26,103 bases of DNA from Chromera velia (lineage: Eukaryota > Sar > Chromeraceae), in NCBI GenBank assembly GCA_018398765.1, contig JAHBMJ010001255.1, positions 1 to 26,103 on the forward strand, in the 5' to 3' direction. A program made the translations under genes and the position numbers. This document shows positions 5,533-26,103 of the stretch, piece after piece (the first letter of the stretch is position 1; each line of letters starts with the position of its first letter). The notes below the pieces were generated by a model that was not told the DNA's origin, did not search any database, and saw only the letters and a list, made by a program, of their open reading frames with translations.

Positions 5533-6929
5533 ATGCTGATCCCACTCAGTGTGTGTTCCCGTCTATGGTTGGTCGTCTCCGTCCTTCTTCTCAGCATTGG
5601 AAGCGAATACAGGCAGTGCCATGCGTTTCTGCCGCCTTCCCTGAGAACAACGCGATGGAGACGCGTCCAAAGACTCTCTCGAACGCACCTACGAATGCAG
5701 CTGAACAACAGGGGAGAGGGTTTCTTTTTCTCACAACTCATCCAACCCCCCTCGTTCAAAGGCGCAAAGGGGTCTATCAAAGCGGCACAAAAGAAGCGAA
5801 ATCCCAGAAAGTCCCTGTATAGCGACAGCATTCAACCTGATGGAAAGGTATATTCCGTTTGTCTGGGTCAGTCAGTCACGCCACCTCGCTCAGAAGATCA
5901 TGCGTGGTGTTCGTTCCCATGCCCCCCCGCCCTCTTTCTTTGCAGGTGGCGGTTTGGATCTCGAGCGACTGGCCTCAAACTTTCAAGGTCACTGAGCGAG
6001 CTGGTGAAATGCGCTCTTCTAACCTCCAATTCCTTCACAGATTCATTCTCATCCTTGCCTTCCGTTTGCCGCCTATCGCCTTCTCACCGCTCGCGGCTCG
6101 TCGGACTCTGCCTCCCTCACTCCCTGTCTCCGCCCCGCCCTTCATGTCTCTATGAGCTTGTGGATAGTCCTCGCGCTTCGCATCTTGCTCCACCATATGT
6201 GATTGTGTATTGTCATTTCGTCGGTGGTCCTTTCCATTCTTGCAGCTCACGATCAGGAGGAGAATGACATCTTCTAGAATAATTATTAAGAACAGAGTAT
6301 TATTCTAGAAGATACCTTTCCATGTTTGCAGCTCACGATCAGGAGGAGAATGACCAGTCGCCCATCAAGATCACGAGCGAGTTTGAGGAGGTTTGCTTTG
6401 CAAAGGTGTGTGTCTCTTTTTTCTTTTGCTGTACAGCCCGCCGAGTCGTCTCGGTGGTGGAACGAACGCGGTGCTTTTCTGTCGAAGCAACCTTGTCACT
6501 TCCTTCTTTGTTACTGTCTGCAGGCTTTCGGAGGCAAGAAAGACGTCTTCTTTTTTCGTTTCGGGTGTGTGGTGACGTGGGGCCTTTCCGAGAAGGAACA
6601 GGAGAAGATCAAAACACTCCTGGAGCCCTATGTGTTTCAGCCAGGTCAATCAACCAGCCCTTGTCAGAAGAATCTGTCTCTCTCTCGCTCGCTCACGCGC
6701 TCCTGCGAGTGTGTGTACAGAGAGAGAGATGGAGAGAGAAATGGAGAGAAAGAGCATGAACCTCTTTGTTTCTCTCAGTGTCTGGAACAATGAGTGCTCC
6801 CTCTGCTGGCTGGGCGCAAGGTCGCATTTGGAGGGGGGGGGCGGATTCGTTGCTTTATTACAGTCGTGTGCCGGGGAGTGGGGCTGAGAATCGAACCGAG
6901 AGGTTGCAGTGCACGGCAGAGGTATGCAG

Positions 6930-6968
<39 letters not shown>

Positions 6969-7492
6969 CCCCGCCTGCTGATATCGAGGAAGACGAAATG
7001 TATTTCACGATTGCCAAGGAGGAGAACGCAAAGCCGCAATTGAGTCAGTGAAAGATGCGAAAGAAGAACGATAGAAAGGCTTTGCAGGAAACTGCCGCTG
7101 GAGCTTTAAAAGTCTGAAGAAGTAAAGCCATCATTGCAATGCCTTTCATTGCATCCACACTGCCGGCCGGAATTTCTTTCTTTCTTTCTCTACTCTTTGT
7201 GAATCACCACGGTCCATCGGGGTTTTCTCTTTCTCCCGGTGGACCGCTTTTCGGTTTGACAACGGGGGAGCCCGAGCAACGACAGAGAAATCGTTATTTT
7301 CCTTCCTTTTTCCTTGTTGTTCACATGCAGATGGAAGGGCAGCAAAGAAAAGAGCGAATCAGAGAGAGCTTCCTTTCGCGCTAAGGAAATCAAAGAGTCC
7401 TTCACCTCCTGTTTCCTTCCATTCACGTGCTATGTTCGTGTATGAAGGTCTGTGTAAAACAACGTTCTCTCTCTTCGTAAAACAACGTTCTG

Positions 7493-7526
<34 letters not shown>

Positions 7527-10500
7527 TGCAGAGAGGGACGTATTCCTCCTAGTTACGTCCAATACCTTCGAACGGCTGGCTTACTCTTACTCTCTTGCAC
7601 AGGTTGGTCGGTCAGTCGGTCCGGTTGTTTGTTTTGTTTGACTCTTTCGTTGCTTTGCTGCGACAGAGTTGTAAAATTCGTTGCCATGGATCCTGAGAGC
7701 GAAAGGAAACTTGTTCATCTGCGTTCCTTCCTTCCTCGCTGTATGGCTTCAGTCTACCAAGCTCGCCATGTTTGCGGTCAGGGTACAGAAGAGCGACTGC
7801 TGCATTGTTTCTTGCGTGAGATAGATAAAGTACACGCACATTGCATGCAGTCCACCAAGCTGGCGGTGTTCGAGGACATCGTCGGGTCAGAAATACATTA
7901 TTGTATTTATTTATATATTTATATTTGCATGCAGTCCACCAAGCTGGCGGTGTTCGAGGACATCGTCGGGTCGACTATCGAGAGGACCAGGCGCGTCCCC
8001 GAGAATTTGGCGAAGGACGGAACAACGTGGATGAGCAGGACGCACATCGCTCAGCAGCTCGGGCAGCTGTTCATCATTCGGTAGGTGCACGTGCATGCAT
8101 GCGTGCGTGTTCATTGAGGAACAGTTTAGAGAGAGCAAGGAAGAAAGTGGTACCGGTTGTCTTGGTGTGTGTTTCTATCGTGTAGTGCCAATGGGGGGCA
8201 GTGTCGTTGAGGCTGAATGTATGCGGATTTGAGATGGGCTTTCATGAAGATATCCGGTCACGTTTTTGACTTTTTTTGAATTTGTCACGCAGATGCAACG
8301 TGAATCTCCAAACAGACATCTTGGACATTCCGGAAATTCTTTGGGAGTTTGATGAGTGGGACGTTCTTTACGAGAAGGCGCGAGACTATCTGGGAGTGAC
8401 AGACAGGGCAGACATCCTGAACCAACGTCTGGACATCATCAAAGACCTGTATGAAATCCTGAACGATGAGCTGGAAGTCCAGCAGTCGCACAGGGAAGGG
8501 CTCGTCGTTATCTCACTTCTCTCGCTGGAACTCTTTGTGGCCATTCTCACCGTCAGTCAGTTAGTCAATTATCTCCCTGCCTGTACCTGCTTTCCTCACT
8601 GGCAGTGGGTCACGCAGTTGTCTTCTGCTTGGCGGGTTACGCGTTCAGCTTCAGCGTCATTCAAGGGAATCGTCCCACCTCGCTGTATTTCTTCCCCATC
8701 TAGGACTGTCCCTGTATTCCCTCCCATATCCCGTCCCTTCACTCTTCGCCCCCTTTTTTTCCCGGTGTGGCCGACCTCTTTCGCTCTCTCTCCGTGGCTG
8801 GGAGGGATCGCGAAACAGGCACCAAAATTTTCTCTGTCAGCGCAGCGAGAGGCACTGTCGGATGCCGTGACGACCTGGGATAGATTTGAGAGTTCCGGCA
8901 TCAGGCTCTGATTTGTGGGTGAGGGAGAGACGAAGAGAAAGGAAGAAAGGAAGAGGTCCTGCATGGAGCACAATGAACGTCGTTGATTGACTTGCTTCTT
9001 TTTACCACCACGATGCCTGAGGATGAAAGGGACAGCTTCGTTGTCTCTCTTTCGCTTCTCTAGGATTGAACGATCCATAAGCAACCAAGCTAAGTGGCCG
9101 CGTGAATCTGGAAGTGTCCTTCCGTCCATCCATCCATGGATCCCTTCATCCATCCATGGATCCGTGTGCATGTGCACACAGGAACTGGTGGACATCAAAA
9201 TGCTGGGACGGTACCTGAGGAACATAGCGGGTCCCCGTCTGAGTCCCATCCGGGGCGCCCTGTTCTCGTGGATGCCCCCTGCTCTGGGCTGGTTTCTCCT
9301 AGGTTGGTACTGGAATTCTTGTTTGTTTGTTGTCATACTTGTGACCCGGCTTTTGTGTCTCCCTCTCGTCTCTCTGTCTGTCATGCTTTCCTTCTTTTTC
9401 GTTCCTTTCTGCCAATGTGTATTTTTCTTTCCGTACATCCCACCACACTGTGCTATGCAGGTGGAGCCGTCGCAGCAGCTGCCGGTCCACCCCTTCTTCG
9501 GTCTGCCCGCAACGTGGTGACGTCAATGCGGGAGAGTTCCGAATTCGCAGACGCGGTGCGGGTCTCAAAGGTCTGCCTGCCTGTCTGTTTGTCTGTCTCG
9601 AACTGACTGTACTCTTCATCCTTTCAATCAGTCGTTGGGTGCGTTTTTTTATCTCCAGCTCCCCCCGCCCGATTTCTTGTCTCCTAAGTATACACCCCCC
9701 CACTGTTCCTTCGACGCCATTTAGAGAAAAGTTCAGTCGGAACGGTTTAATTAAGAAACTTACAGGTCGAGCTGTTTTGTGTTTAGCCTCCCTTATGAAT
9801 GGTTTGAAAATTTTTCAATCTGCATTTGTCTGTCTGTCTGCATGTGTCTCTGCACAGAAAAAGCCTTCGCTTTTCCCAACTTCGTTTTCGTCGTCCTCGA
9901 AGACTACCTCACCCCTCAAGGAGGAAGAAGAGAGACCCACCAACCGGGGGGACTCTTTCCTTCTTTCTGAGGGCTCAGAGGAAAAGGAGGGAGGTGTTGA
10001 CCGCAGTACTAGTGGAAGCAGGTGGGGGGTGAGGAGACGGTTGCAGTCGGCGGGCCGTTCCCTTTTTGAGTGGATACGTCCGGTTGATCGGACTCGTGAA
10101 GAGGAAGAGGGGGAAGCAATGGGTGGGAGAGCTTCTACATCTGTTTCTTCCGCGGGAGGCTCTGGAAGGGGGGAGGTGAGTGCGTCGTCTTCGCCTTCGG
10201 CGGATGAAATGGAGTCCCGACGGCAGGCGAGGGATCGGAGAGGCGAGCAGGCGGCAGGGCTTTCGATAGAACCTGATGATTTCTATTCGTCTTCTGCTGT
10301 CCGAGAGAGGGGAGAGAGAGTCGTTGTGAAGGGATCAGAAGATCCTCGAGAGAGCGTTTTGAGAGAAGCGGTAGAGAATGAGTTTGAGGGGGAAGGGGGT
10401 AGAGATTTTTTACACGACGATGAGGAGAACTTGGACAACCTGAGTGAGCTTGGAGACAGGAGGACACTGTCGAATGACGTAGAGCGAGACTCTGAGGTAG

Positions 10501-11825
10501 CAGAAGAGGCATTGAGAACTTCTTCTCCTTCCTCCTCCTCGTCTTCCTCCTACGAGGAGTCCGTGCGAGAAATGCAGAAAGCCGTGGAACTCCGACAGAT
10601 GGCGGATGATGCCTTCATGAATGCAATGCGATCGGCCGCCGCGGCCTCCTCTCACCATCGCCCTGTGCCTTTCCGGGGCCCTCAAAGTTTTTTTCCGCCT
10701 CCAGCCGGGGCCCTGGTCCCTCTTGAGGGCCCCACTCCGGTCCTACCCGGAGGCTCCTCAGAGGCACGCGTTCCCTCAGAAGACGGAAGCCAGGTGCCGC
10801 CATTTCCGATGATGTTTCCCCCATGGGGGTTTTTAAATCCGTACTTGATGGGGGGGCTAAATCCCTACGCCCAAGCGGCGTCCGTGGGCCCCGGCATGGC
10901 CCAATTTGCCCCGTCGACTATTCAAGGGCAAAACACAGTAGTACCGGGTCCCGGTCAGTTTCCGTTCGGTGGCACCTCCGGTGGAGGCCCACACGTGAGT
11001 CCATCGTCGGACGAGCGCGCGCGAGAGAGGGAGGCGTTGGAGCAGTTGCTGCAGAGCATGACGTCAGCAGGCGGGGCGTCAGCAGATGGCCTCAGTGCGG
11101 AGGTCCCCGAAGACCCGTTTTTACAATTTCTTGTCGGGGGGCCGCCTGGATTGGCAGTCCCCTCAGCAGCAGGAGCGGGAGGGAGCCCTCAGGAGGGCGG
11201 GAAGGGGGCGAGTCAGAAAGAACGGCAGCAGAGTCACACAGCAGCGGAGGAGGTGAAGGTAGGAGGAGGGAAAAGCCCAATGGAGGCAGCAGGGGACGGA
11301 CGGTGGCTGTCTCCTTTTGGGTGCCCTCCCCTTTTTCCCCTCCCGCCCCCCTTTCTATTGGGTGGTGGCGGTCAAGGGGGCTCTTTGGAATCTCTAGAAG
11401 TCCCCCCCGCCCCCGTCGGTTGGCCCTCCCAATCCCTCCCATCTGATGCTGTTGCATCATCGAGGGGAACACCTGCGAGTGCAGTATTTGGAGACTTGTA
11501 CAGAAATGGAGGGGGTAATTTGAGAGAGAGAGAAAAGGAAATGCAGTCGGAGTCCAACATGGGGAGTCCGTTTCAAGTTGGAGGGATGAGCTTTGATGAG
11601 AATTTTCCTTTTCCCTCTCCTTCTCTTCCCTCCTGGTTTACCCCTTCCTCTGCTGGTGTGCGTTGGAGCTCCTCTTCTTCTTCTGCTGCTGCAGAACACC
11701 CTAATTCCTCTTCCGCTTCCGTTCATGGGAACGGTTTCCTTCCTTTGTCAGCTGAAGAGCCTCCGATGCCACAAAGTTCAGAGGTTCAAAAGAGGGCAGA
11801 AGAGAGCAGAGAAGATAAGGAGTGA
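5533..11825 (+). CDS. RMD1/DUF155-family protein with plastid presequence and long C-terminal extension, 11 exons
   Basis: Inferred exons: 5533-5866, 5946-5987, 6332-6405, 6524-6644, 6969-7043, 7532-7602, 7935-8080, 8293-8551, 9182-9302, 9461-9570, 9858-11825. All phases join to 1106 codons and TGA. Residues 1-31 are a hydrophobic signal peptide, followed by F32 and an Arg/Ser-rich stretch, as in bipartite presequences for complex plastids. The DUF155 domain runs from about 106 ('KVYSVCLGGGLDLERLA') to 374. It includes 'DVFFFRFGCVVTWGLSEKEQ', 'RLAYSYSLAQ|STKLAVFE', 'RRVPENLAKDG', 'DILDIPEILWEFDEWDVLYE' and a hydrophobic helix 'VVISLLSLELFVAIL'. Exons 9-10 add a second hydrophobic segment ('GWFLLGGAVAAAAGPPLL'). 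Exon 11 is 655 codons of Ser/Gly/Pro/Glu-rich, probably disordered sequence. Yeast Rmd1 and plant RRG-type relatives are organelle or membrane associated, and their biochemical activity is unknown. Exons 1-8 are well supported. The link from exon 8 to 9 and the unusual tail are less certain. Confidence 0.82.
6229..6354 (+). repeat. Duplicated 3' splice site with palindromic spacer (copy 1 of 3 such loci)
   Basis: Direct repeats of 40 bp at 6229-6268 and 6315-6354 (two mismatches) each carry an acceptor (TTGCAG) plus the start of exon 3. The 46-bp spacer holds a perfect 15-bp inverted repeat, ATCTTCTAGAATAAT at 6269-6283 and its complement at 6299-6313, with a 15-nt loop. Using the first acceptor would reach an in-frame TAG inside the left arm, so the second (exon from 6332) is taken as functional. 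Confidence 0.9.
6929..6966 (+). repeat. (TG)n tract before the exon 5 acceptor
   Basis: About 17 TG units lie directly before the GCAG acceptor at 6965-6968 of the RMD1-type gene, in place of an ordinary polypyrimidine tract. A shorter (TG)n stands in the same position before exon 6 (about 7510-7528). Confidence 0.9.
7841..7972 (+). repeat. Duplicated 3' splice site with AT-rich palindromic spacer (copy 2 of 3)
   Basis: Perfect 48-bp direct repeats at 7841-7888 and 7925-7972 each hold TTGCATGCAG and the first 38 nt of exon 7. The 36-bp spacer is almost all A/T and contains a 7-bp inverted repeat, AAATACA (7891-7897) and TGTATTT (7902-7908). The offset is 84 bp and the frame stays open through the spacer, so use of the first acceptor would insert 28 codons in frame and duplicate 'STKLAVFEDIVG'. 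Confidence 0.92.
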
Positions 11826-12989
11826 ACAGACGGGTAAGGGGGTAATGCAAATTTCAGATCGACTGATCACTCGTCTTTTCTGTCTTCGCTTCGAATGCGA
11901 AGACTGGCGTCAAAAAGGAGGGAGGGATCGATCGACGAGCAGATGCTCTCCCCTGTGCATTGATTATAGTTTCAGCAGCCTCCTTCTTTCCGCTCGGACA
12001 CGAAGTTGATTCACGTCGTCAAGCACAGCTCAGGTCTTATGGGAGGGAGGCAAGAGAGAATTTCGAAGAGAGCCCCGAGAGAGAGGGGGGGGGGGAGAGA
12101 GAGAGCGAGAGAGCGAGAAAAAGAGAGAGAGAGAGAGAGAGGTGGCGGGGATGTTCGAGAGACGGCCCAAAGAGGAATGGCACACCGTCTCTTTTGCTGA
12201 GATGAAGAAGGAAAAAATAGTCTGAAATACATTCGCTAACTTGAATGGTGGAAACCTTCACTGCACTGCATGAGTAAGAATGGCCTTCTGTGCTTGTGTG
12301 TCCCATTTGGGGTTCTGCCTGACCGCTTCGATTAGATTTCTCGCGAGACGCGACTCCAACAAATGTCTGTAGTAACGCTTGATGTCAGACCACAGTCTTT
12401 GGAGGAATCCGGGACAACTTTGAGTGTCACCCGATTCTGCAGTGAGGTGAGGAGGTGCGGTCCTTCTGTCCCTCGTATGCCCTTCCAGTAGTGCTCCTGT
12501 AGTGAAGTTGCTTCCACCCGTTTTTCCTGAAGATCTCTTTTCACCCAAATACATCAGCTGAGGTGCTAGTACTATAACCAGTGAAAACCAGTGTTTAAAG
12601 TTTAAACCATTCAGCTGGGTAGCCATAATGACTCAGAAGACTTTAGACTGAAAAACAATATTATTGATGTATAGTAATCTAAACAGCTAGTATGATGCGT
12701 GTATACAGCCTCAGTTACTAAAATTAAAAATGATCTTAACATTTTTGAAATAAATTTTAGAGGCACTGTGGCACACTGCTCCCTTTACTTATACATCGTG
12801 ATACTAAGGATTAAAAATTAATATTCAAATTATCTAACTTTAACTTTGAGTCAAAAAATAAGAATAATAAGACGAGATAGGACTATAACAAATATAGACT
12901 AGAGGATAGAGTAGTTTTTTCTAAAGATGAATTAAAATTTCTAGGGGTATTACAGCAAACAAAAAAAATAATTAAAGCCAATTCTGGCT
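11826..12989. other. 3' flank of RMD1-type gene and AT-rich spacer
   Basis: About 11826-12230 is likely 3' UTR and flank, with a (GA)n run near 12085-12142. A reverse-strand open frame at 12258-12626 encodes 122 residues ending in a helical, Arg-rich segment ('LWSDIKRYYRHLLESRLARN'). I do not recognise it and cannot show that it is a gene. From about 12640 base composition becomes strongly AT-rich and nothing else is seen. Confidence 0.45.
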
Positions 12990-13617
12990 TACCCTGCACG
13001 CAGCCAGGATTTTGTGGGATTTCAGCCCAGGATTTTAGCGGATTTTACGGGATTTTGGCCAGGATTTTAGCGGATTTTAGCGGATTTTGCCCAGGATTCT
13101 GCCGGACTCTTAACGTTAAAAATATAATCCCTACACCTAGGATTTTAGGATTTTAGAATATAAAATCCTGGAAGAAAGCTAAAATCCTAGCCTCTTCCTA
13201 GGATTTTACGGGATTATACGGGATTATACGGGATTTTACGGGATTTTAAAGAAATGAATAAAATCAAATTCAAAGATGAATGACACACTTCAAGGCTGTA
13301 CAGAAGGGATAACCGGCATCGATTGTGATCGACTTTTATTTCATTGTTTTTGTTTATGTTAAAATCCCGTAAAATCCCGTATAATTCCGTAAAATTCCAT
13401 AAAATCCTGGCATTCATTTCTAAAATCCTAGGATCCAGGATTTTAGTCTTTATAATCCTTAGAGCCAGGATTTTAAATTCTAAAATCTTGGAGAAATAGT
13501 TCGGCAGAATCTTGGGCAAAATCCGCCTAAATCCGCTATAATCTTAGCCAAAATCCCGTAAAATCCGCTAAAATCCTGGGCTAAAATCCCGCAAAATCCT
13601 AGCTACCTGCAGGGTAC
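12990..13617. mobile_element. Fold-back/MITE-like element with long inverted arms
   Basis: The left end TACCCTGCA at 12990 and the right end TGCAGGGTA ending at 13617 are perfect inverses. Inside, the first about 270 bp and the reverse complement of the last about 260 bp align with moderate divergence. Both are made of GGATTTTAGC and ACGGGATTTT units. No coding frame is present. Flanking target duplication is not clear. This is a non-autonomous palindromic element. Confidence 0.8.
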
Positions 13618-13936
13618 TATTTTGTTTTTTTACTGATGATGTTAAGTGACAAACTAGGTGATAAACACATCTATAAACCAGGGCGATATGACATATTCGG
13701 ACATGATCATATGAGAGGTGATATATAAGTCTCATATTCGGTTCCATATCACCCATGCATATCACGGATATGGGGATATAGAGCGATATGAGTATCTGAT
13801 ATGGGGATATGACGTAATATGGTCATATCTAATAGTTGGCAACTGTTGTTTGGTGATGTTTGCGTGTTACGTAACTGTTGTTTGGGTGTTGCACAACTGT
13901 TGCTTAGCTGCCAGTGTTGCTAGCTAGATCTAAAAA
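13618..13936. repeat. GATATG-rich, partly palindromic spacer
   Basis: Bases about 13680-13830 contain many GATATG, CATATC and GGATATGGGGATAT words, with imperfect inverted symmetry between the two ends (GATATGACATATT against the complement of AATATGGTCATATC). It may be another small degenerate fold-back repeat. No gene is seen. Confidence 0.5.
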
Positions 13937-14036
13937 AAAAAAAATAATTAAAGCTAATTCTGGTTTACTTTTTTTTTTAACTACTATGATACGCCTAGTA
14001 GTCAGGCCATAAATGAAGGAACGAAAAGAAAGTTGA

Positions 14037-14420
14037 AGAAAGGTAGAGGAGACAGCAGCGGAGGAAAAGGAAAAGAAAAGGGAAGTGAGAAAGGGGCAGA
14101 GAGATGGAGATGCGAAGTGTGAGGCATGTGGACGAACGTTTTCCACCCCCCGGGGGCTTTGCATTCACACAAGCAAAGCACACAAGGACCTTGCCCCCAG
14201 ACAGCCAGAGCAGCCGAAGAAGGCAGTCAAAGAAAAGAAGGGAAGCTGGGTTCAGGGCTGTCAGGTGAAGGAAATTCTTAGGAAGTACAAGCAGGGAAGA
14301 GGATGGCGTTATGAGGTGGCATGGCATGGCTAGCAGTCAACATCACATGAAGCAGCCTCGCTCATACGCAAGCACGCCCTGCCAGAAGTGGAAGAGTTTG
14401 AGAAAAAATGTAGCTGTTAA
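14037..14420 (+). pseudogene. Retroelement fragment: C2H2 zinc finger plus chromodomain, interrupted by TAG
   Basis: One reading frame runs from after a stop at 14034-14036 to TAA at 14418-14420. It encodes a basic Glu/Lys leader, a C2H2 finger 'CEACGRTFSTPRGLCIHTSKAH' (first 20 shown across 14118-14183) and a chromodomain-like segment 'VKEILRKYKQGRGWRYEVAW'. A TAG at 14331-14333 falls right after the conserved Trp-His-Gly. The same frame then continues with a typical chromodomain end helix ('EAASLIRKHALPEVEEFEKK'). Fingers of this type and chromodomains occur in retrotransposon proteins. The TGATGATGATGATGA run at about 14533-14547 could be a retroelement tail. It is probably a 5'-truncated, decayed copy. 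Confidence 0.65.
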
Positions 14421-15797
14421 GCTATTTGCCAAAGGTTGTGAAATAAAGGTCCATCATTTAATAATCTGCCTTATGTGTTGTGACTTGCCGAATGCTAGAC
14501 GCCTATTATGGGCCGATAGCGATGGCGTATGATGATGATGATGACTCAACTATGGGCATTTCTTCTTTTGTTTTGTTTCGAGCGGTTCCGAGTCCCTCTC
14601 TTTCCTTTATTTTATTACTTCTGCTTTGTTCGGATTCACCCCAGGGCCCCCTCTGCCTCTCCCTAACTTTCCCTTTTTTTCCCTTTTTATCCGTTTATGG
14701 CCCCATTGTTTCTCTCAGTTAGAGCTTTTACTTTTTCCATAACCGTATCCCTTTTTGTGTTTCAAATTTGGTAGAAATGAAAGAAATTCAATTTGGGGAA
14801 AAGATCAAAAGAAGCGTTGAGGGAAAGAAATCAGAGAGAGGATGAAAGAGAGAAAAGAGCTTTTTGACAGATAGTTAAACTTCTCTTCTTTCAAAATCTC
14901 TTTCTTCTTTTCCTTCTTCTGTCGTCTACTTTCCTTTCTTTCCTTTTCATTTCTTTTCCTTCTTTCTCCTCTTCTTTTCCTTTTCTCACCTCTTTCTCCT
15001 CTCGCAGTGTAGTCTTCTCCTCTTTTCTCCATAATATACCGTGATCCAATGGCGTGTCCTGTTTAAAAGGTTTCAGTGACAATCCAACGATTCGACTTCT
15101 CCTTTATTCATTCTGTATCTAACCTTCCTTCTTCCTTTCTACTTGTTGAATCTTTTTCTTTTGTTCTTTCCGTCTTCTCTTTCCCTCCTTTTGTGTTTTT
15201 ATGTATATGCACCGTCAAACATGCATGCAGAGACACTGAGTTATGCATACATACATGAAAGTATCACTAAATCCAACTCGTTCTGACGGACCGGAACCTT
15301 TTTGCACACAATATCAGAGCAAACCATTCGAACGTAGACGGACGTCTCCATAAAGCCGCGATGGAAAGCTTTGAACAGTTACTTTTTGAAGCATGTACAC
15401 CTACTAAAAATGAATGTTCATGTTCTAACTGTTTGTGGAAAAGGTAGAAATTTATGGCACTTCTACCTGACAGTGTCTGTACGTGTGGCATGTCAGTGCT
15501 TCCATACTCTTTGTCACTGAATTTTGTTTGTTAAACTTTGTCTTGAATATGAGGACGTTCAACTTGGTATCTGAACCTCTCACATCTACTTGCATTAGTG
15601 AAAATCTATTGGGAGACCCCCTTTTTGTCTTAAAGTAAACTGAAGGAATTTGTTGAAGTGACTGTCTACATGAGTGAAAAGAAGTTTAACTTAACGAAAG
15701 CAAACGACGGAACTGTGTGAAGATAAGCCGATATACCAATCGAGCTGCACCTCCAAAAATTTTTGTGCTTTGAGCATGCTTCAGGACATCAATCGCA
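14421..15797. other. Non-coding spacer, pyrimidine-rich
   Basis: No gene is recognised. Bases 14421-14550 look like the 3' tail of the preceding retroelement fragment. About 14590-15200 is C/T-rich with TTTC and TTCC words, so reverse-strand open frames there are Lys/Glu/Arg low complexity. Bases 15240-15797 show nothing identifiable. Confidence 0.5.
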
Positions 15798-16022
15798 TGG
15801 ACTCAGACCTTAGCCGATTTGTCTGGGATTTTTGGCACTGATCCCAAAGTTATGGGGGTCAGGGACCCCAAAATAACCTTAAACAGCCACTTTTAAAATT
15901 GTTTCTAATGAGTTCCTAATTAACCACATATCAACCCTTAAAAACACTTTAATAAGCCTCCAATATGTCATTTGCACAGATCTCGAAGTTAGTCCAGACA
16001 AATCGGCTAAGGTCTGAGTCCA
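15798..16022. mobile_element. MITE-like element with perfect 29-bp inverted repeats
   Basis: The 29-bp sequence starting TGGACTCAGACCTTAGCCGA at 15798-15826 recurs as its exact reverse complement at 15994-16022. The 167-bp interior is non-coding and includes a GGGTCAGGGACCCC palindrome. The outer flanks also keep partial similarity (ATCGC words), so the true ends may lie a few bases further out. A small non-autonomous DNA transposon is the simplest reading. Confidence 0.75.
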
Positions 16023-16514
16023 CGCGAGCGATCTCCGTGGTGTGTTCACAGGTCTGCATGACTGGATATTGAGTCTCGGTGCGAACCGAGTGGGAGATAG
16101 CCATACAAGTGGTGCTTATGTGCCGTCCCTGACCCTGTTCATTCCTCAACCTGCTTTGACATATACTTTTGTCCTCCTTCATCCTTTTTGTGATCGTGAA
16201 CGTTTTCCCATTCAAAAATGAAAAAACTATTAGGCTAGTAAAATCTTAATTAAAATCATAACTCGAATCACTGGCAGTCATAACTAAAAATCGGTATAGA
16301 CTACAATATAGCTAGGCTCCGTATATGTAAAAAATAAATAAATAAATTCAGGTCAAAACCTGAATCATTTTTTTTATTTTTGTACATCAGCTGGGCTGTA
16401 CCACGTGAGCTTCGAACTTGAAGTCACGGTGTTTACTTCAAAAAAGAAAATAAATAAATAAAAAGTAAAAGTGGTTTTAGCACAAAAAAAAATGTTTTTT
16501 TTATTGTTTTACGA
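16023..16514. other. AT-rich spacer with a short hairpin
   Basis: No gene is seen. A small palindrome ATTCAGGT-CAAA-ACCTGAAT lies near 16347-16366 between A-rich TAAA repeats and a T run. The A-rich sequence continues up to the start of the reverse transcriptase remnant. Confidence 0.5.
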
Positions 16515-19244
16515 ATGGAAAGAATCATAAGTCAGCTGGCAGAGAAAGGAGGAGAATGGAAGGTATGGAACCAGCTGAGCAAAAAAAAAGAGGTAAGAAA
16601 AGAAGATATACTGACTGAAGAAGAGATAGCAAGAGGGTGGGAAAAACAGTGGAAGAAAAATGAAAACGAAGACGTAGAGGAAGAAATCATGAAAACCGTC
16701 TCACGTATCAGATTCTTCAAAGCACTGACAGAAGCAAAAGAATGGAGGATAGACACAAAGAAGGTATATGAAGGATTAAAAAAGAATGGAAACCCCAAGA
16801 AAGCGGCAGGGAAAGATGGCATGCCTCCGGGTGTGCATGGTGCAATGGCAAAGTCGGCAACAGTAGTCGAGTGTTACCATGGATTAATAAATGTGTGTGC
16901 TCGTTTCGCATGGTGGCCGTCTGGATAGAATGATCTCGTGATCTCCGCACTTCCCAAACCAGGGAAGCCGCAGAGCATTCAAAAAGGATGGAGACCAATC
17001 CACTTAGACTCAGCCGATGCGAAATGGGGGGAGTTGTACATGAGGGATGCGGTAGAGACCGAGGGAAGGGAGAAACGAAACCATGTATAGTTCGCCTACA
17101 GTAAAGGGGTAGGAACCTTGAATACAATTTTTCTTTTGCTTCAATCGATCGCTCGTCTCGAGATTCTTTTTGTTTCTTTTATTGATTTCACAAGTGTATT
17201 TGATGAAGCATCTCACAGTAGAATGCCTGAACAGTTGAGAAAGCACGAGGTACGGGAAGAGACCATTAAGTGGGTATGTGAGTCGCTGTGAAATATCAGA
17301 ACAAGGGTGAAGGGGAGTGATTTCTGGTTTTAGGAAGAAAAGGGGTTAAAGTAGGGAGGTCCGGCAGGACCTTCTTTGTTTAAGGGATATACAAATGATA
17401 TGCCAGCACTGCCAGACATTGGGAGGAGGGCAGGCCTCACCGGGAGGGGTCCCAAGCTCCAGAAAGGCCCCGAGGGTGTGCAAAAGAACTTCCCTGTCGG
17501 GCTTTTTACTGACGACACGTACCTTTAATCGATAGAGGCAGAGGAGATGGAGAGGCTTCTGAAGGCACTGGAGGAGTATGCAAGGCCTTTGAAGCTCCTT
17601 CTGTCAGATAAGTCAAGAATAATGAAGTTTAGACAGAAAACGGGGGAGAGAAGAAAGCGATTCACATTGGGTGGGGCGGAGTTAGTTCAGGCAAACAAAT
17701 ATCCGTACCTGGGCCTTCTTTTAACAGAAGATTACTCCACAGATGTAATGATGAGAGAGAGAATGATTAAGGCAGAAAGATTCTTTTTTGCATTGAAAAG
17801 TAAGATCAGTGCAGGAGGAGAGATCCCACCCGCAACTTATTTTCAATGGTTCAGGCAGACAGTGTGTGCAGTTTGGTCATACGGCTGCGAAGTACATTCA
17901 CACTCGCAGGAAGTGTTTGTAGAGTTTGACAGACTGCAAAGAAGATTCATTCGATGGGTGCTGCAACTGAGAGAGAAAGAAAGCATACTCACCACTTTCC
18001 TTGAGGCAGGCCTTCTTTCTATCGATCTGGTGGTTGCACAGAGAACCCTGATGTGGACAAGGAAGGTAATCCAAAAAGGAAGAGACACACTGACAGGCCA
18101 TGCACTCATTCAATCATTGCAGGAAAGAGTCGATTCAGAACTGAGAAGAAGGAAGCTTCACCCTTTTCACTTTTTCCCCTACTTGAAGAAATGTGTCGAA
18201 ACACTTTTTACAGAGATAAGAAGCCATCCCTTCCAGATAGGAAGAGAACCAGAAGCTGCAAGCAGACAACCTTCCTTTGAGAGAAGAGACAGAATAGTAA
18301 GGTGGATAGAAGTGCTAAAAAAAGAAAAAATTATAAAGAGGAAAAAGGAAGTATTTGCAGAGAGAGTTGAGAGGTCAGTGTAGAAAAGAGGAAGGGCCGA
18401 GAAGGGAGAGCTGAGAGAAGGCATCATGCATCCTATCTATGCATCTCTATGCAACAGAAATCGCCTAAATCTGTGGCTTCACAACAGCAAGAATAGAAAA
18501 GATACAGACAGGAGCATTTCATAAGATAGAGATAAGATAGGGAGAACTCCCGTCTGCTATACAAAGATAGCTCCCTGGCCTGTCCATAGAAGAAGGGCTG
18601 CATTTCGGGTAGAAGAGAGAAACTTAGAGGTAAACAGGGGGAAGTTCTCAACAAAAGGAGACAGAGGGACCCCATTAACAGAAAAGAAATGCATGGTTTG
18701 CTCTGACCTGCTTGACATTCAAGCAGTCGAAGATGAAATCCATGTGCTGACTGAATGCCCTCTGCATGATGGAGAGAGGGCAGGCTGCTTGCAAGCTTTG
18801 ATGACACATTGGAGTTCGGTGAAAGGGAGAGAGGAGAGAGCTGCAAATAGCAACAGATGGAAAGTGGGAGGGGAAGAGAAGGTAGACAAGATCGCTCTAT
18901 TCTTTTTTCTTTTGAATGAGGCCGACAAGAATGTTGATACCTTTTTGAAAGACATCATGATGAAAAGACAGGTAGTGAAAGAATGGAAAAGAAAAAAGGG
19001 AGACAATTTGAGTCAAGCTTTAGGAAGAGAGTTAGATAGGCTGCATCAGGAGACTTGGAAAAGTGAAAAAGAAAGAGAGCAAAGAATTAAAGAGTATGAA
19101 AGGGTGTGGAGTGATACAAAGAAAGCAAAAGAGGAGGGAAAAAGGAGGAGGATGGGATGTTGGGAGGTTTTGGAACTCGCTTCGAGCCGTTCATCTACAA
19201 TTCTGGGATCGTTCCCTTTCAAACCCTGCTTTGGAATGGAGTAA
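16515..19244 (+). pseudogene. LINE-like (non-LTR) reverse transcriptase pseudogene
   Basis: One frame can be followed over about 2.7 kb. It shows finger and palm features ('KKAAGKDGMPPGVHGAM', 'VISALPKPGKPQ', 'FAYSKGVGTLNT', 'FIDFTSVFD'), a 'GGPAGPSLFKGYTNDMPAL' block, the catalytic-type 'GLFTDDTYL' (about 17499-17525), then 'KYPYLGLLLTEDYS' and a thumb region. A C-terminal Cys/His motif follows ('CMVCSDL...EDEIHVLTECPL'), as in many non-LTR elements. In-frame stops at 16926, 17088, 17289, 17331, 17352, 17526, 18381 and 18522 break it, with no frameshift seen. No endonuclease domain is visible upstream, so the copy is probably 5'-truncated. The exact 3' end is uncertain. Confidence 0.85.
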
Positions 19245-19529
19245 GCCCTCTCGCATACATACGCAGGTGATTGACTGTTCAATGTGATCCGTTTGCGGCA
19301 CAAGCAAGACCTGTGCGGGCCGGCCAGGGAGGTCTGATGCGTTTAGACGCTTTCCCTGGAAGCCGTACGTCGGATATTCGGCATTAGGGTGGGAGGCCAA
19401 TCCTCCGGACATTAATCCTAATCCTAATCCTAATAGATTACTTGCTTATGCGGTGGCCCGATCCTTGGTTATATCCCCTCTGGCTTTGAACCTGCTTGAA
19501 TATTATATACCCAATATTAAATTCCTATA
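19245..19529. other. 3' flank of the retroelement
   Basis: No gene is seen. CCTAAT is repeated about three times at 19413-19432, a short telomere-like or tail-like run. It may be part of the retroelement end. Confidence 0.4.
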
Positions 19530-19835
19530 TACCCTACAAAAAAACATGGAAACCGTAGGGAAAACTGTGGGAAATTGATGGGAAATCCTCGTGAAATCCG
19601 AGAGAAATCTAAGTTTAAATTTAGGGAAATCCACGGGAAATTGATGGGGAATCTAACGTGGGAAATGAATGGAAAAATGATAGGAAATTGATGGAAATCC
19701 TAGGGAAATCATGCAGTGGGAAATCTCTGGGAAATTTCAGCCTAGATTTCCCATCAATTTCCCTCGGATTTCACTAAGATTTCCTATCAATTTCCCATAG
19801 TTTTCGCTATGATTTCCATATTTTTTTGTAAGGTA
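19530..19835. mobile_element. Second fold-back/MITE-like element (GGGAAAT-rich)
   Basis: The ends are inverted repeats of 29 bp with four transitions: TACCCTACAAAAAAACATGG at 19530 and its counterpart ending TTGTAAGGTA at 19835. The interior is rich in GGGAAATTGATGGGAAATC units on the left and their complements on the right. The terminal TACCCT(A/G)CA matches the element at 12990-13617, so they may be related families. No target duplication is obvious and there is no coding frame. Confidence 0.75.
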
Positions 19836-20043
19836 GTCATAGGTAGTCACATTTCATAAACATCGGTAGAAACACCGGCCCCTGGGTCTAGCACCGGGTA
19901 CTAGACCAGCCGGGTACAGAGATTGCTAGAGCATGACCTGGGTTGGCCAGAGCCAAAGAGGTCGGCTCACCGGCTTTTACGACTTCAATCTAATTCAAAA
20001 AAGAGATCGCTAGAAAGATTGTCACTTTGAGTGTACGTACATC

Positions 20044-20088
20044 GTGTGTGTGTGTGTGTGTGTCTGTGTGCATGTGTGTGTGTGTGTG

Positions 20089-20156
<68 letters not shown>

Positions 20157-20167
20157 CGCGCGCGCGC
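20044..20167. repeat. Long (GT)n followed by (GC)n
   Basis: About 120 bp of almost pure alternating TG with rare CATG interruptions, ending in GCGCGCGCGCGCGC. It lies about 40 bp beyond the stop codon of the PfkB-family kinase. Alternating GT/GC is the classic type of sequence able to adopt left-handed Z-DNA. Confidence 0.95.
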
Positions 20168-20207
20168 AACAATAGACGCAACTTAAACGAACCACTCGGT
20201 CATGAAG

Positions 20208-21296
20208 TCAGCTGGCGAAATTCTGAGGATCAAAGTCCGCACCATAATATGACTCGCAGCTTTTCGATGCCGCTCTCAACCCCTTCTTGAATGCCTCCTG
20301 AGCTGTGACCCCCATGGCTAGCAACGCAAACATCACACCCGACACCGTGTCTCCTGCTCCTATGGGGTTCTTCACTTGGATCTTTGGAAGCTCCTCAGGG
20401 CCAATATAGCTGCGTCTCACATGCTCTTTGCCCTCTCCTCCTCGTTCCCACAGAACCCCGCCATCACCCCCCATCGTCACCCCGACCACACGAAGCCGGG
20501 GATATTTCTCCATGACCTTTGCTGCTGCAGAGTCGAGGCTGCTATCTTTGCTCAACCCCGCAATCTTCAAAAGTTCGTCACCGTTCACTTTCAAAATTGA
20601 AGTCTCCGGCAAAACGTTCAAACCGTCTACCAGCAAGTCGCATCCGTAATCCACAGCCAGCCGACTGAACAAGGATGCATCGACTGTAGAAGGCCAAGAG
20701 CCGCAAATGGCTAAGCCTTTGCACTCTTTTTTGGCCATCTCATTCCGCACCGTCTCTAGAGTTGACGTCAAACAAGAATCACTCCATGCAGGCGATGGTT
20801 CGACGAGCTCTGTCATCCTGTGACCACCGCCTTCAGCCTCTTCCAGAATGGTTGTGCAAATTCGTACATCCTTTCCAGAGTCACAAATAAATCGCGAGTG
20901 ACAGTTCGGGTGGCGGCTCCTCAGTATGTCCTCCATGAATCTGGAATTCATGCCGTCTCCGGATGGAGTGACGAGGACCGTCTCGTGAAATTTGGAAGCT
21001 GCCAGGGCAGTGTGGAGAGCCTTCCCCCCCACATATTCGATAACCTGTTCAAACCGATTAACTTCTCCAATCTGCATCTCCTTCTGTCTCATGATCAGCG
21101 AGCGCTGACGACCGCTGCTGAAGCCAAGAACTACAATCATTGCGCAGGCAAGGAGAGAGGACATACAGGCGCAAATCTTGCTAACTTGCAGGACCACGTT
21201 TGAACTCTTGAATCGGCAACCGACCCTCTTCCACAGCACCCAAATCTGACAAGCCCGCACAGCGTCCATACTCCTGTCACACTTGTACGTGTGCAC
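20208..21296 (-). CDS. PfkB/ribokinase-family sugar kinase (1-phosphofructokinase/tagatose-6-phosphate kinase-like)
   Basis: Intronless frame of 362 residues from ATG at 21296 to TGA. The C-terminal PfkB signature 'NPIGAGDTVSG' (310-320) includes the presumed catalytic base D316 and the GAGD anion hole. 'VGGKALHTALA' (89-99) matches the sugar-binding Gly-Gly region, 'MTELVEPSP' (161-169) matches the T-x-x-x-EP block of the LacC/FruK branch, 'LKVNGDELLKIAG' (235-247) matches the usual N-x-x-E-L motif, and 'VTMGGDGGV' (273-281) is the ATP-site loop. Such enzymes phosphorylate sugars or sugar phosphates with ATP; the substrate cannot be told. The family core seems to begin near M53 ('MIVVLGFSS', codon at 21140). 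The first 44-52 residues are therefore an extension, and the real start may be 21164 or 21140. It is divergent from the BAR-like gene. Confidence 0.85.
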   Translation of the reverse strand: MHTYKCDRSMDAVRACQIWVLWKRVGCRFKSSNVVLQVSKICACMSSLLACAMIVVLGFSSGRQRSLIMRQKEMQIGEVNRFEQVIEYVGGKALHTALAASKFHETVLVTPSGDGMNSRFMEDILRSRHPNCHSRFICDSGKDVRICTTILEEAEGGGHRMTELVEPSPAWSDSCLTSTLETVRNEMAKKECKGLAICGSWPSTVDASLFSRLAVDYGCDLLVDGLNVLPETSILKVNGDELLKIAGLSKDSSLDSAAAKVMEKYPRLRVVGVTMGGDGGVLWERGGEGKEHVRRSYIGPEELPKIQVKNPIGAGDTVSGVMFALLAMGVTAQEAFKKGLRAASKSCESYYGADFDPQNFAS

Positions 21297-21825
21297 AATG
21301 ATACGGCATTGAATTGAAGCGAGATAGAGAGAGAGAGAGAGAGAGAGTCTGATACATGAGAGATATACGATCGATAAGTCAGTATTAAGTCTGGCACAGT
21401 CAGACTGTGTACGATCGACCGTCTATATTATTAACAATACATCCCGCGCCCCCGCGCAGGGGCCCAAAACTATCCAAAACTCGAGCCAAAAGCCACGTTT
21501 GCAAGTGGAAAAATCCGTATCCACACAAAACATCACAAAACAAATCAAAACAACGCTCAAATGTCTCCTTGACTGATCGAGTTTCTGTCGTACAGCTCCC
21601 TTCATCCAAAGTCTCAACGTCTGACACATCGGCTGTGCTTTGAAGCAGTATAAGAGCATCTGGGCAACGCATTTTTCATACACGTGCGCAAAGTGGTGCC
21701 TGACGCTCGTCTTGCGTTGAGCATTCTCCCTATCTCTTTTTCCTGTTCTCTGTGTGTTCAGAACGGTGCGACCGTGACAGGCGAGGCAAGCGTGCCATCT
21801 CTTTTCTCCTCACCGTAGGGGCACC
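21297..21825. promoter_or_regulatory. Divergent intergenic region between kinase and BAR-like gene
   Basis: About 530 bp between two start codons pointing away from each other, presumably holding both promoters. It contains a (GA)n run at about 21328-21347. Near 21750-21826, TGTGTGTTCAG resembles a 3' splice site, so the + gene may have a 5' UTR intron. Open frames here resemble nothing known. Confidence 0.4.
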
Positions 21826-24800
21826 ATGCTGCAGTACGAGGAGCTGGCAGCGGTGCCCCAGGAGAGGCAACCAGACCCTGTGCACCGCCTCCAGTCGGCT
21901 CTGCGCACAGTGTCCGCAGTGCTCGAAATAGAGAACAAAGCCGTGGGGATTTTTGATGCACTGCAGCAACTGATCAAGCAAAAGATCTCCGCAGGCACCA
22001 AACAGGAAGCCCGGGCATTTGATGTCGAGTTCGACGGGTGTGCGGACGCATGCAAGGGGCTTCTCACTTTCTTTGAGCAGTTTGCCAGCGGAGCTGAGCA
22101 GACAGCCTCCATTCTCAAAGCAAAGGCTTGTGAGCCCCTGTCGGAAGCAAAGGAAAACTTGAAGAGAGAGGTGGACAATGTCGAAAAGATGCAACGGGGG
22201 GGTTCACGGGGATCTGTTGCTGTCCGAGCTCCACCGCCGCGTTCCTCTCCTCGAGGCTCTGCGGAACTGTCCGAGGCAGACCGTGCGTTGCTGGAAAAGC
22301 TTGAAGGGAAACTGCGGAAGGCAGAGGAAGACGTTCAGGTCAGCTGGTGAAGTGAGCACAGTGTCACCTTTACACTCACAACTTTTTCCCCCCTCTTTGT
22401 CCCTCTTCCCCCCTATTCCCGCTTTGACGCTTTGCCCTCGTTTTCCTGTACTCCGGAGGCTGCACTTGCCAGCCCCCCATCTCCCAAATCGCCTTTGCGC
22501 CATTGAGTAAAGGAAGGAGGAGATGGCCGTCTCCGGCTCACTGGTGCCGTCTTCTATGAATGAATGAATGAGACTTTCTGTCTGTCTGCAGAAAGCGCAA
22601 GACGGGGCAGAGAACCTGAAGAGGAGGTACAAGGGGAAGAATATGGAGTACCCCGAGACCCTCGCGAAGGTTCAACAAGACCGCGTGGCGAAAGCACAAA
22701 ACGAAAAGGAAGGAATCGAGGCCCAGATCGCTGCCATCCGGGCCCGTGCCTCTGTGCAGCCCCCCCTCTCGCACAGGTCACAACAGGACTCTGCGAGGGG
22801 ATCAGGGGAGGGCCCTGCGAATAGGGCCGATACATGGAGAGCTGTGGAAAAGGCAGATCAGGCCAGGCTGACAGCTGTGCGGGCGGCACTTGTTGGGGCT
22901 GTGGACGCTTTCAGGGCTCAGTACGTTTTGTTTGGTAGTGCTCTGTCGGAGATGAACATGCTGGTGAACGAGTTTGACCCTGTGGTGGACATGCAGGAGT
23001 ATGTCGGGGGAGCTTTGGGGGTCAGTTGGTGTAGATGCTGAGTATGGACGTGTTTTACTTCAAGTATTGCATGAATTCATACATGAAAGAAAGCGATGCC
23101 GAAGCACGCAGCGCTGTGGGAGAAGCTGGCAGGGATGGTCTGTACACTGCTCCCTCTCTCGTGTATTGCAATGGGTCGGTGTTGCAATTTGTCATTCGGC
23201 CCTTGTTTCTCGGTCGTCTTCGTTTCTTATGTTTCCTCCCTGCTCCTCTTCTCTCGCCGTCTGCCAGTCTTTTGTTCGGCTCTCTCCCACTTTTGGCGCA
23301 CAGTATTCAAGAAAGTGAGGTTGGAATTCTGAGGCATCGAACTTCTCCCCCCCCCTGCAGATGGATGTGGACGGTCGGAAGCTGAAGGAGGAGAGGCGGA
23401 AAAGCGGAAGGGGCCCTGCGCGATCTCCGTCGATCATAGCCGCGGGGGCCGCAGGGGCCGTAGGGGGTGCTTTGGGAGCGCGAGAAGCGGCCCAGTTGCA
23501 GAGAGATCTGGAGGACGCGAGGGAGCAGGCACGAGACCAAGAGGTCAAGGCCGCTTCGTACAAGAATCAAAACGAGAAACTGAAAAAAGAACTTGCGGAC
23601 TATAAGAGTGGGGCAGCGCTCTCGCCCAATTCTGCTGTGGGTGCGGGAGTGGTTGGAGGGGCTGCAGGGGGGGCAGCGGTTGCTGCAGGGAGTGGGGCCT
23701 TATCTCGTAATGGCTCGGTTGTAGTGTCCGGTGTCCCCGGAAAGCCGACAGAATTTCCGCAAGGGGGAGTGGTAGGTGATGGAGGGGCCGGACGGGAAAG
23801 CGCGGTGGCGAATGCGCGACAGAGAATTCGGCAGGGAAACGCACGTGGCTCAAGCATGACGGCATCGGAAGATCCTGGAGGAGGATTGCGTCCCAGTCGG
23901 AACAGCGACCCTGCAATGGCGACCTCGGGGGGGCAGCGGGGGGGGGAAGGTAGGGGGGAGCTTGCACGATACCCTAGCGGCCTAGGTGCCGTCGGGGGGT
24001 CTGCAGAGCGCTTCCCCCCCCCGCCAGGAGAAATTGACGCTGGACCCATCCTCCCTTGGGCCACGAACATCTTTTTTGTGGGAGGCGCTACGGCTTCTGC
24101 CGAGCAGCGCTGGAGGAAAATGGCGGTGGTTGGGATGCCGCAGACGGCAAGTCTGGTCAGTCATAGAGAGGAACTTGAATGTGCATTGTGCAAAAATGAA
24201 AGGAAGAACAAGCTGTGTGCAAAGGGCGGTGGAGGTGGTAGCTTTCTCTTTCTGGGTGGGCATTCAAAGGCCCCTCCTGTCAGTCCTCAAGGCCCCTCCC
24301 CGACCATCACTGGTCGCACATGTACTGGTCGCCTGTCAGATGGCCCCGGCGATTCGTGCAGAGGTTTTTTTTTTTTTTCCTTTCATACTGTATCATACAG
24401 AAAAAGGAAGAAAGTGCAAGAATTCTGTATGACGCCTGCAGATGGCCCCGGCGAATCGTGCAGAGGTTTTTTGGAGGTGGGCATCGACAGCGCGGAGATT
24501 GGAGCTTTCATCCATTGGACTATTACAGAGTCACAAGAGACAGCCACCTGCGATATTGGAGGGATCCTCTTCGTTTCATCCCGGAGAAGAAAAAGGAAAA
24601 CACATTACACTGACCAGAAAAACGTCACTGCAACACAGTGGTACTGCCCCTGCAGAACAGGCAACCGCCGCCGCCTTAGTGGCTCGTCAGGGAACGATTT
24701 CGTTGTCGCAGCCGCAGAGTCGAAGGGGGTCCCTGTCGAAGGACGCATCCGACTGGACCTCCCTCTCGTTCCTCAGAGACAGGTCTGTGGAGAAGGACTT

Positions 24801-25515: not shown

Positions 25516-26103
25516 GTCAGGCATAGTCGAGTGGCAGTCAGGTAGAAAAGAAGTACCGATAATGATCCATGTGAAAATAAGTTGTCAAGCCTGTGACTCA
25601 ACGGGGAGCGAAATGTTCTCGCGAGTTGGGCGAATGGATTGCCTGCCCGAGGACACATTTCTCCTTGTATGCACATCATTGACGCACGCAAGGACGCATC
25701 AAAATTTTTCACCCAGCGCTAAATGAGTGCCTCAAGAAGCTGGGGTGATGGGTTGCCAGAGGACACATTTCTTTTCTGCTTGTACGCACAGAGAGAGACC
25801 CGTAGATGGCCATAGCTGTGAGAATGAGAATGCAGCATGGCGGTATGCATCTGTACCTTCTCAGCGGTCCATTTTTGGCGACATACTTTTCTTCTCAACA
25901 CTCCAATCGTGTTTCTGTTTTTGCTTTGTCTTTGCATACTGTGTTCATTTGTCCACAGTCTCCTTCCTGAGCTGGCATGTTTCCCCGTCTTTTTTTGCCT
26001 TTTTCTCACCAGTCACCATTTCATCTGTCGGTTTTGTCTGTATTTTAATATCAGTGCCAATCAATGAAGCTCTCGAACTTTCTCCCCATCCCCCCCCCCC
26101 CCC
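25516..26103. other. 3' flank of BAR-like gene
   Basis: No further gene is recognised. Two imperfect copies of a GGACACATTTCT...TTGTAYGCACA segment occur near 25650-25676 and 25758-25790, with a period of about 110 bp. From about 25840 the + strand is T/C-rich. The window ends in a run of about 14 C. Confidence 0.5.

Follow-up and report, generated by a model that had tools for sequence, protein, structure and literature searches.

Long direct repeats, many of them carrying splice sites, flank short inverted-repeat elements in Chromera velia

MITEs and Foldback-type elements are short and noncoding, have long terminal inverted repeats, reach a high copy number and lie across genes, and the target duplications of common DNA transposons with inverted repeats measure about 2-11 bp. 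The duplication length of DNA transposons is fixed within each family (PMC8969392). Introners are inverted-repeat elements that persist in genes through splicing, with splice sites recruited from target duplications of 3-9 bp or 3-5 nt (PMC9860276, PMC7789003). In mammalian cells, fill-in at staggered breaks with overhangs down to 43 bp gives rise to tandem duplications whose length is set by the overhang, with no mobile element family between the copies (PMC8355091). Tandem duplication of a proto-splice site creates a new intron between the copies, the duplicated splice signal neutralising the genic duplication (PMC2891723), and direct repeats of 4-30 bp (mean 11.4) that pair the two ends of an intron have been taken as insertion scars (PMC11782384).

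The elements described here share features with each of these systems and match none of them. They resemble MITEs in their terminal inverted repeats, small size, noncoding nature, many copies and spread through genes, whereas their ends are ragged and their duplications long and variable. In contrast to introners, in the cases read they lengthen one end of an existing intron, and their persistence through splicing is predicted. A mobile element family stands between the copies, unlike in the fill-in duplications; the site that was copied was the border of an intron beforehand, unlike a proto-splice site; and both repeat copies lie at one intron end and are longer than the intron-border repeats. 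Among the titles and abstract openings listed by a literature search that covered few subscription journals, and that is no proof of absence, none described elements with inverted repeats and target duplications of 20-60 bp, or such an arrangement in any species.

The window, that is, the whole 26,103-nt stretch of C. velia DNA analysed, was found to hold 13 acceptors and 12 donors that could be placed, instead of the approximately 16 introns counted in an earlier note on this sequence. Each exon start was compared with the intron upstream, using 300 shuffles per acceptor and p values uncorrected for multiple testing. Three of the 13 acceptors rose above background (scores of 31, 40 and 34, equalled in 0/300 shuffles each); the lowest p among the other 10 acceptors was 0.010 (acceptor 6523). 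None of the 12 donors stood out (lowest p 0.017, donor 6004). Each outlying acceptor had a 34-48 bp direct repeat containing the acceptor and exon start, with a spacer of 36-68 nt. A scan of the full window left exactly three direct-repeat pairs once low-complexity arrays had been dropped, and these were the three acceptor-spanning pairs that had been reported before.

All three loci lie on the plus strand. At locus 1, the upstream copy (6229..6268) has a CAG acceptor ending at 6245, followed by the exon start, and is now intronic; a 46-nt spacer with a perfect 15-bp inverted repeat (6269..6314) separates it from the downstream copy (6315..6354), whose predicted working acceptor ends at 6331. 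The two copies are 40 bp long and 95% identical, with a period of 86. Locus 2 comprises an upstream copy (7841..7888, acceptor ending at 7850), a 36-nt AT-rich spacer with a 7-bp stem (7889..7924) and a downstream copy (7925..7972) with the predicted working acceptor ending at 7934 and a DUF155 match in the exon. This 48-bp pair is 100% identical and has a period of 84. An older, decayed third copy of the acceptor and exon start lies further upstream (7750..7780, 21/31 bases), its score of 17 exceeding the maximum of 15 in 1000 shuffles. At locus 3, the upstream copy (24337..24370, acceptor CAG at 24337-24339) and the downstream copy (24439..24472, predicted working acceptor ending at 24441) are 34 bp long, 97% identical and have a period of 102; the 68-nt spacer (24371..24438) has a 10-bp inverted repeat. 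The measured periods agreed with the 84-103 bp given earlier. The proposed repeat length of 40-48 bp described loci 1 and 2 and not locus 3, and the hairpin expected in each spacer was strong only in locus 1 (folding z of -5.2, against -2.9 and -1.7 in loci 2 and 3).

The reading frames favoured use of the second acceptor at each locus, since at loci 1 and 3 the frame from the first acceptor reaches a stop within the spacer, and at locus 2 it would insert 28 residues into the DUF155 domain. Once the insert and the outer repeat were skipped, the frame was unbroken across the junction at all three loci. The same held for a gene with one element on a donor and another on the following acceptor. 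Pfam searches of flank and window exons returned no family for 7/10, 3/6 and 6/10 in three sets, and the codon-usage track gave a weak signal.

Spacer 3 proved to be a diverged member of a family of short elements with inverted repeats that is present in many copies, scoring 25 against the family compared with a maximum of 17 in 200 shuffles. In the 177.8 Mb genome, about 0.26 Mb of which was read in detail, there are 884 occurrences of the 12-base end motif versus 14 of its reversal, and two-ended copies number 89 versus 0 for the reversed pattern. Scoring 40 of 136 candidates gave 100 family alignments at no fewer than 40 places. The sampled elements are 55-115 nt long with near-palindromic ends; these ends are ragged, the interiors vary and some filler derives from repeats, which suggests copying with slips. 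Rfam searches of the window and five loci found nothing within the elements and one tRNA, in L007. Spacers 1 and 2 did not match the family above shuffles (p of 0.50 and 0.135, respectively), and the genome has no second place with the arms of spacer 1. The shuffle comparison and these unique arms rule out a single family for all three spacers; a single element class for them is unsupported.

Flanking direct repeats were present at 26 of 28 family copies and absent from two. Their length ranged from 17 to 62 bp (median 35.5, sd 10.8), a variability foreign to the fixed short duplications of MITEs and shared with LINE retroposons. None of 756 mismatched flank pairs scored as high as the true pairs, which, together with the window shuffle tests, rules out chance repeats. 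Assembly error could be rejected as a general cause because the two repeats of many pairs are not fully identical, some bases having changed, and because inserts of this one family turn up at numerous locations. The process is recurrent, as the earlier note had proposed; locus 3 agrees with its suggestion of a mobile element that makes long staggered cuts, whereas spacers 1 and 2 show no detectable kinship with the family.

Read by eye, 15-16 of the 26 family duplications span a splice junction (11 donors and 4-5 acceptors), and 10 have no readable junction. An automatic boundary score, compared with random segments, gave p values of 0.020 for donors, 0.0087 for acceptors and 2.8e-4 combined, with only 7/26 loci individually significant. 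As donors outnumber acceptors in this sample, the specificity for 3' splice sites considered at first is ruled out, and the association with junctions holds. In the cases read, five of the 26 having stayed unread, an intron that is there in any event is extended by the insert together with one of the repeat copies, and the frames are continuous; the birth of new introns, also envisaged earlier, was not seen in any of them.

We consider, with a probability of about 0.55, that these are fold-back elements inserting with long, variable duplications, and that splicing removes the insert where a splice site has been copied. Non-autonomous, hairpin-forming, high-copy elements would enter a target opened by opposite-strand nicks about 36 bp apart; an element copy would be set between the opened ends, and fill-in of both overhangs would copy the target on each side of it. 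Where the target lies over an exon-intron boundary, the duplicate would carry a whole splice site and exon edge, so that the spliceosome could use the outer copy, which is the downstream one at acceptors and the upstream one at donors. The insert would be absorbed into a longer intron and the protein would stay unchanged; judging from the sequences, the insert can probably leave with the intron thanks to the copied splice site, which keeps the gene intact. Selection would remove most exonic insertions in which no splice site was copied, and repeated events at one boundary, with exchange between repeats, may yield double or triple units and arrays. Locus 3 is a family member, and loci 1 and 2, which share its layout, are attributed to this process working on different inserts. 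Against this reading stand the lack of family kinship of spacers 1 and 2, the duplications without a readable junction, the two copies without a repeat, and L038:1208, where an acceptor is duplicated in tandem despite the absence of a foreign insert. If the reading holds, a duplication carrying a complete splice site would make an insertion that otherwise breaks the gene harmless, the intron merely growing. Introns could become longer in this simple way, which would also create alternative splice sites and place copies of exon edges within introns. Each insertion would leave a datable scar, and intron growth could be tested directly by comparing filled and empty sites among strains.

A more tentative reading is that integration is directed to exon-intron boundaries, for example by transcription-opened DNA or by machinery that recognises 5' splice sites, with tolerance through splicing as a second filter. 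The share of junction-spanning duplications compares with 2.9% of random 36-base window segments and 7.4% of random genic segments with a placed junction, both values being too low because only plus-strand genes were counted. Among the donor duplications, 6/11 have their intronic end 5-8 bases past the junction (P 0.0013 if placement were uniform), in a test of 11 by-eye cases with one length trimmed by hand. At 45 loci (58 hits) an element end lies beside donor-like sequence, compared with 29 loci (41 hits) for a complement control, at least 8 of these 29 also having a donor; CAYNCA, with 172 hits, was invalid as a control pattern because the end of the element itself fits it. One boundary was hit repeatedly at locus 2, L042 and L050. 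However, the donor excess is modest, acceptor offsets are less tightly clustered, and exon-biased insertion followed by selection predicts a much similar picture. Equally tentative is the related proposal that the elements form a class not described before, one that makes breaks of about 36 bp (17-62) and is steered to donors and acceptors alike, the duplication serving as a spare splice site that renders the insertion silent. Boundary targeting, if true, would be a new integration mechanism, and such a class a genomic parasite that hides through intron lengthening.

Passive break repair, which would produce tandem duplications with captured filler at any site and would often happen to pick up hairpin DNA, appears unlikely. 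Duplications with filler are reportedly known for rice insertions from Vaughn and Bennetzen in 2014. L038:1208 indicates that duplication is possible without an element; plain tandem duplications also occur in the window (1873-1959 and 7454-7497), and 3/6 non-family repeat pairs lie on acceptors. Yet flanking repeats accompany 26 of 28 same-ended copies, and capture would not start and stop near the same points 884 times.

Still less probable is an identity as short retroposons that depend on a LINE-type reverse transcriptase for movement, although LINEs characteristically leave duplications of varying length (PMC8969392) and retroposition of short DNA-transposon pieces can occur in primates (PMC11195612). 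The window has a broken reverse-transcriptase-like stretch (16515-19244), for which 17547-18380 gave no Pfam match and a search for a flanking duplication (16.5-19.2 kb) just one 12-base match. An A-tail was absent, by eye, from the 28 copies, whose two ends are both near-palindromic and ragged, and the duplications of primate retro-DNA peak at 8 bp and those of L1 at 15 bp (PMC11195612), far under 35.

That each insertion makes a new intron, as with introners, which are likewise short, inverted-repeat, genic and intron-linked, is improbable, since in readable cases, which do not include L024 in an exon, a pre-existing intron is extended and the reported introner duplications are far shorter (PMC9860276, PMC7789003). 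Reverse-spliced RNA, raised in the earlier note, we infer to be disfavoured because none of the inserts is an intron and exon sequence forms part of the duplications.

The direct-repeat scan of the whole window (pairs of at least 22 bases, at most 400 bases apart, with low-complexity arrays removed) left exactly three pairs, each duplicating an acceptor and the start of its exon. Locus 1 (6229-6354) has a 40-bp repeat (95% identity, period 86) around a 46-nt spacer, locus 2 (7841-7972) a 48-bp repeat (100% identity, period 84) around 36 nt, and locus 3 (24337-24472) a 34-bp repeat (97% identity, period 102) around 68 nt. The only striking inverted repeat lies in spacer 1 (15 bp, folding z -5.2), that of spacer 2 being short (7 bp, z -2.9) and that of spacer 3 partial (10 bp, z -1.7). 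The three loci and periods described in the earlier note were thus recovered, but its repeat length of 40-48 bp does not extend to locus 3, and the strong spacer hairpin is confined to locus 1. An upstream copy of the exon start was present at 3 of the 13 placed window acceptors, which none of 300 shuffles equaled; the best p among the remaining acceptors was 0.010 (uncorrected). No clear downstream copy was detected at the 12 placed window donors (minimum p 0.017, uncorrected). Head-to-tail duplications with no spacer lie at 1873-1959 (40 bases) and 7454-7497 (23 bases).

At loci 1 and 3, the frame from the first acceptor meets a stop inside the spacer and the second acceptor leads to an open frame. 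At locus 2, use of the first acceptor would add 28 residues, and the exon 3' of the second matches DUF155 (PF02582) positions 83-131, the next exon covering 133-174. Based on these reading frames and the DUF155 match, the downstream repeat copy is predicted to be the working boundary and the upstream copy to be intronic. A third, decayed copy with its own CAG at the start lies in the intron upstream of locus 2 (~7750-7780; 21/31 bases matched, score 17 vs. a maximum of 15 among 1000 shuffles). Hence, the same boundary was probably struck at least twice.

We have scanned for this layout 19 genome stretches picked irrespective of content (~166 kb), and found it twice in L004 and also in L007 and L014; the spacers have common ends, TTTCATACAGAATTC and its complement. 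In the 177.8-Mb assembly (4040 contigs, the window being contig C1253), one such copy used as query gave at least 100 alignments at at least 40 places (40 of 136 candidates scored). The two-ended pattern occurred 89 times vs. 0 for the reversed pattern, and the 12-base end motif 884 times vs. 14 for its reversal. The sampled copies measure 55-115 nt, bar one nested case, with variable interiors and ragged ends, and the three tested fold as hairpins (z -9.3, -11.9 and -4.0). Tandem arrays of element ends were seen at C90:37491-38062, C306:30386-30767, C1:391-583 and C1875:105022-106043 (periods ~103, 74, 96 and 100, respectively), as if repeat plus element had turned minisatellite.

The flanks were aligned for 28 copies, comprising L007, L014 and 26 distinct loci of 30 from the genome search (the other four were the same place on the opposite strand). 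A direct repeat of score ≥17 joined the left and right flanks of 26 copies, and 756 mismatched flank pairs never scored above 12; none was found for L048 and for the nested copy L029. Repeat length was 17-62 bp (median 35.5, SD 10.8). DNA transposon target duplications are typically about 2-11 bp long. Each DNA transposon family is reported to have a characteristic, fixed length (PMC8969392), and the present family departs from these since its duplications are long and variable.

Junctions in the 26 repeats were called by eye from the flanks, with the repeat position known to the caller. Eleven repeats hold a donor plus upstream coding sequence (L007, L021, L022, L027, L028, L033, L034, L036, L039, L042 and L047; a stop codon could replace the donor in L027 and L047) and four or five an acceptor plus downstream coding sequence (L025, L026, L035, L049, perhaps L050), so that the specificity for 3' splice sites suggested earlier does not hold for the family. 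Three are intronic and clear of any junction (L031, L038, L045), one lies 3' of a stop codon (L023), one in an exon without a junction call (L024), and L014, L032, L040, L043 and L044 received no call. In support of these calls, the PF00069 match of the L035 kinase exon begins with the residue immediately 3' of the acceptor, L027 has a PF00230 match, and L034 has a weak PF00069 match in the exon following the intron. In one gene of L004, element L021 sits on a donor and L049 on the next acceptor; skipping both yields a single open frame through a CGSC motif like that of papain-type peptidases, with no Pfam match in a later stretch of the locus.

Random genome segments, scored identically, served as the reference for an automatic score combining boundary and coding contrast. 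Against them the p values were 0.020 (donors), 0.0087 (acceptors) and 2.8e-4 (both combined), and 7/26 loci were individually below 0.05; the p values from a plain matrix test were 0.024, 0.10 and 0.013, respectively. Random 36-base window segments held one of 26 placed plus-strand junctions in 2.9% of cases (7.4% in the genic part), rates that are too low because minus-strand genes were left out. The window minus strand carries a CDC50 family gene (4218-4931) and a PfkB family gene (20211-21296).

Tolerance, by which exon-edge insertions survive if the repeat carries the splice site, explains why surviving insertions there have one within the repeat, but alone it does not account for intergenic copies being possibly at most ~6/26. 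Targeting to exon-intron boundaries has two modest signs in its favor. In six of the 11 donor repeats, the end lies 5-8 bases inside the intron (P 0.0013 if placement were uniform; one length was hand-trimmed). Sequence resembling a donor was found beside the ends of the element at 45 loci (58 hits) vs. 29 loci (41 hits) in the complement control, ~22 hits being expected by arithmetic from 884 ends; at least 8 of the 29 control loci likewise contain a donor. If boundary targeting holds, the fold-back family would be a new class of mobile element; we give this reading, targeting included, a probability of roughly 0.3.

A mobile element making long staggered cuts, as proposed earlier, agrees with spacer 3, whose match to the family has an nhmmer E value of 0.003 and reaches a score of 25 (maximum 17 in 200 shuffles). 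Spacers 1 and 2 gave no family match over shuffles (p 0.50 and 0.135), and the arms of spacer 1 have no second occurrence in the genome. Further long repeat pairs with differing spacers were found in 246 kb of fetched sequence. With arrays and fragments of longer shared repeats set aside, three of six non-family pairs contain an acceptor followed by coding sequence (L033:844, L038:1208, L042:2666); of these, L038:1208 is a simple tandem duplication with no foreign insert. The long boundary duplications therefore extend beyond one family. The L003:5311 pair (spacer 19) of the first scan was excluded by the stricter filter of the 246-kb scan. In L042, a single gene that looks light-harvesting-like by eye carries a triple element unit on a donor (1450-1700), while one of its acceptors bears another long duplication, whose spacer is unrelated (2666-2791).

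We favor a mechanism in which the target would be nicked in staggered fashion, a hairpin-forming element copy placed there and both overhangs filled in. In mammalian cells, fill-in at overhangs down to 43 bp is reported to produce tandem duplications (PMC8355091). The mosaic family interiors, the repeat-like filler in L033, the triple units in L042 and L050 and the element arrays (period 74-103; C306, C1, C90, C1875) are consistent with template switching during copying and with exchange between the repeats. The family resembles MITEs in form but lacks their short fixed target duplication. As with introners, the target duplication would be used for splicing, but the copies that could be read lengthen an existing intron and show no new one, the introner trait.

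The short repeat ACGCACGCAAGGACGCATC serves as spacer in L024 (2321) and L044 (850), where the direct repeats on either side measure 38-41 bp; in L044 it has a 9-bp hairpin. It also occurs once in the window (25682-25700) and is perhaps a second family with long duplications. Broken open frames, reverse-transcriptase-like by eye, occupy 16515-19244, with no Pfam match in 17547-18380 and no clear flanking duplication of the stretch. Imperfect short repeats (GGATTTTA / TAAAATCC; GGGAAAT / ATTTCCC) lie at 13003-13599 and 19545-19825; within each of these stretches they are in opposite orientation either side of a center, so that each resembles a large inverted repeat.
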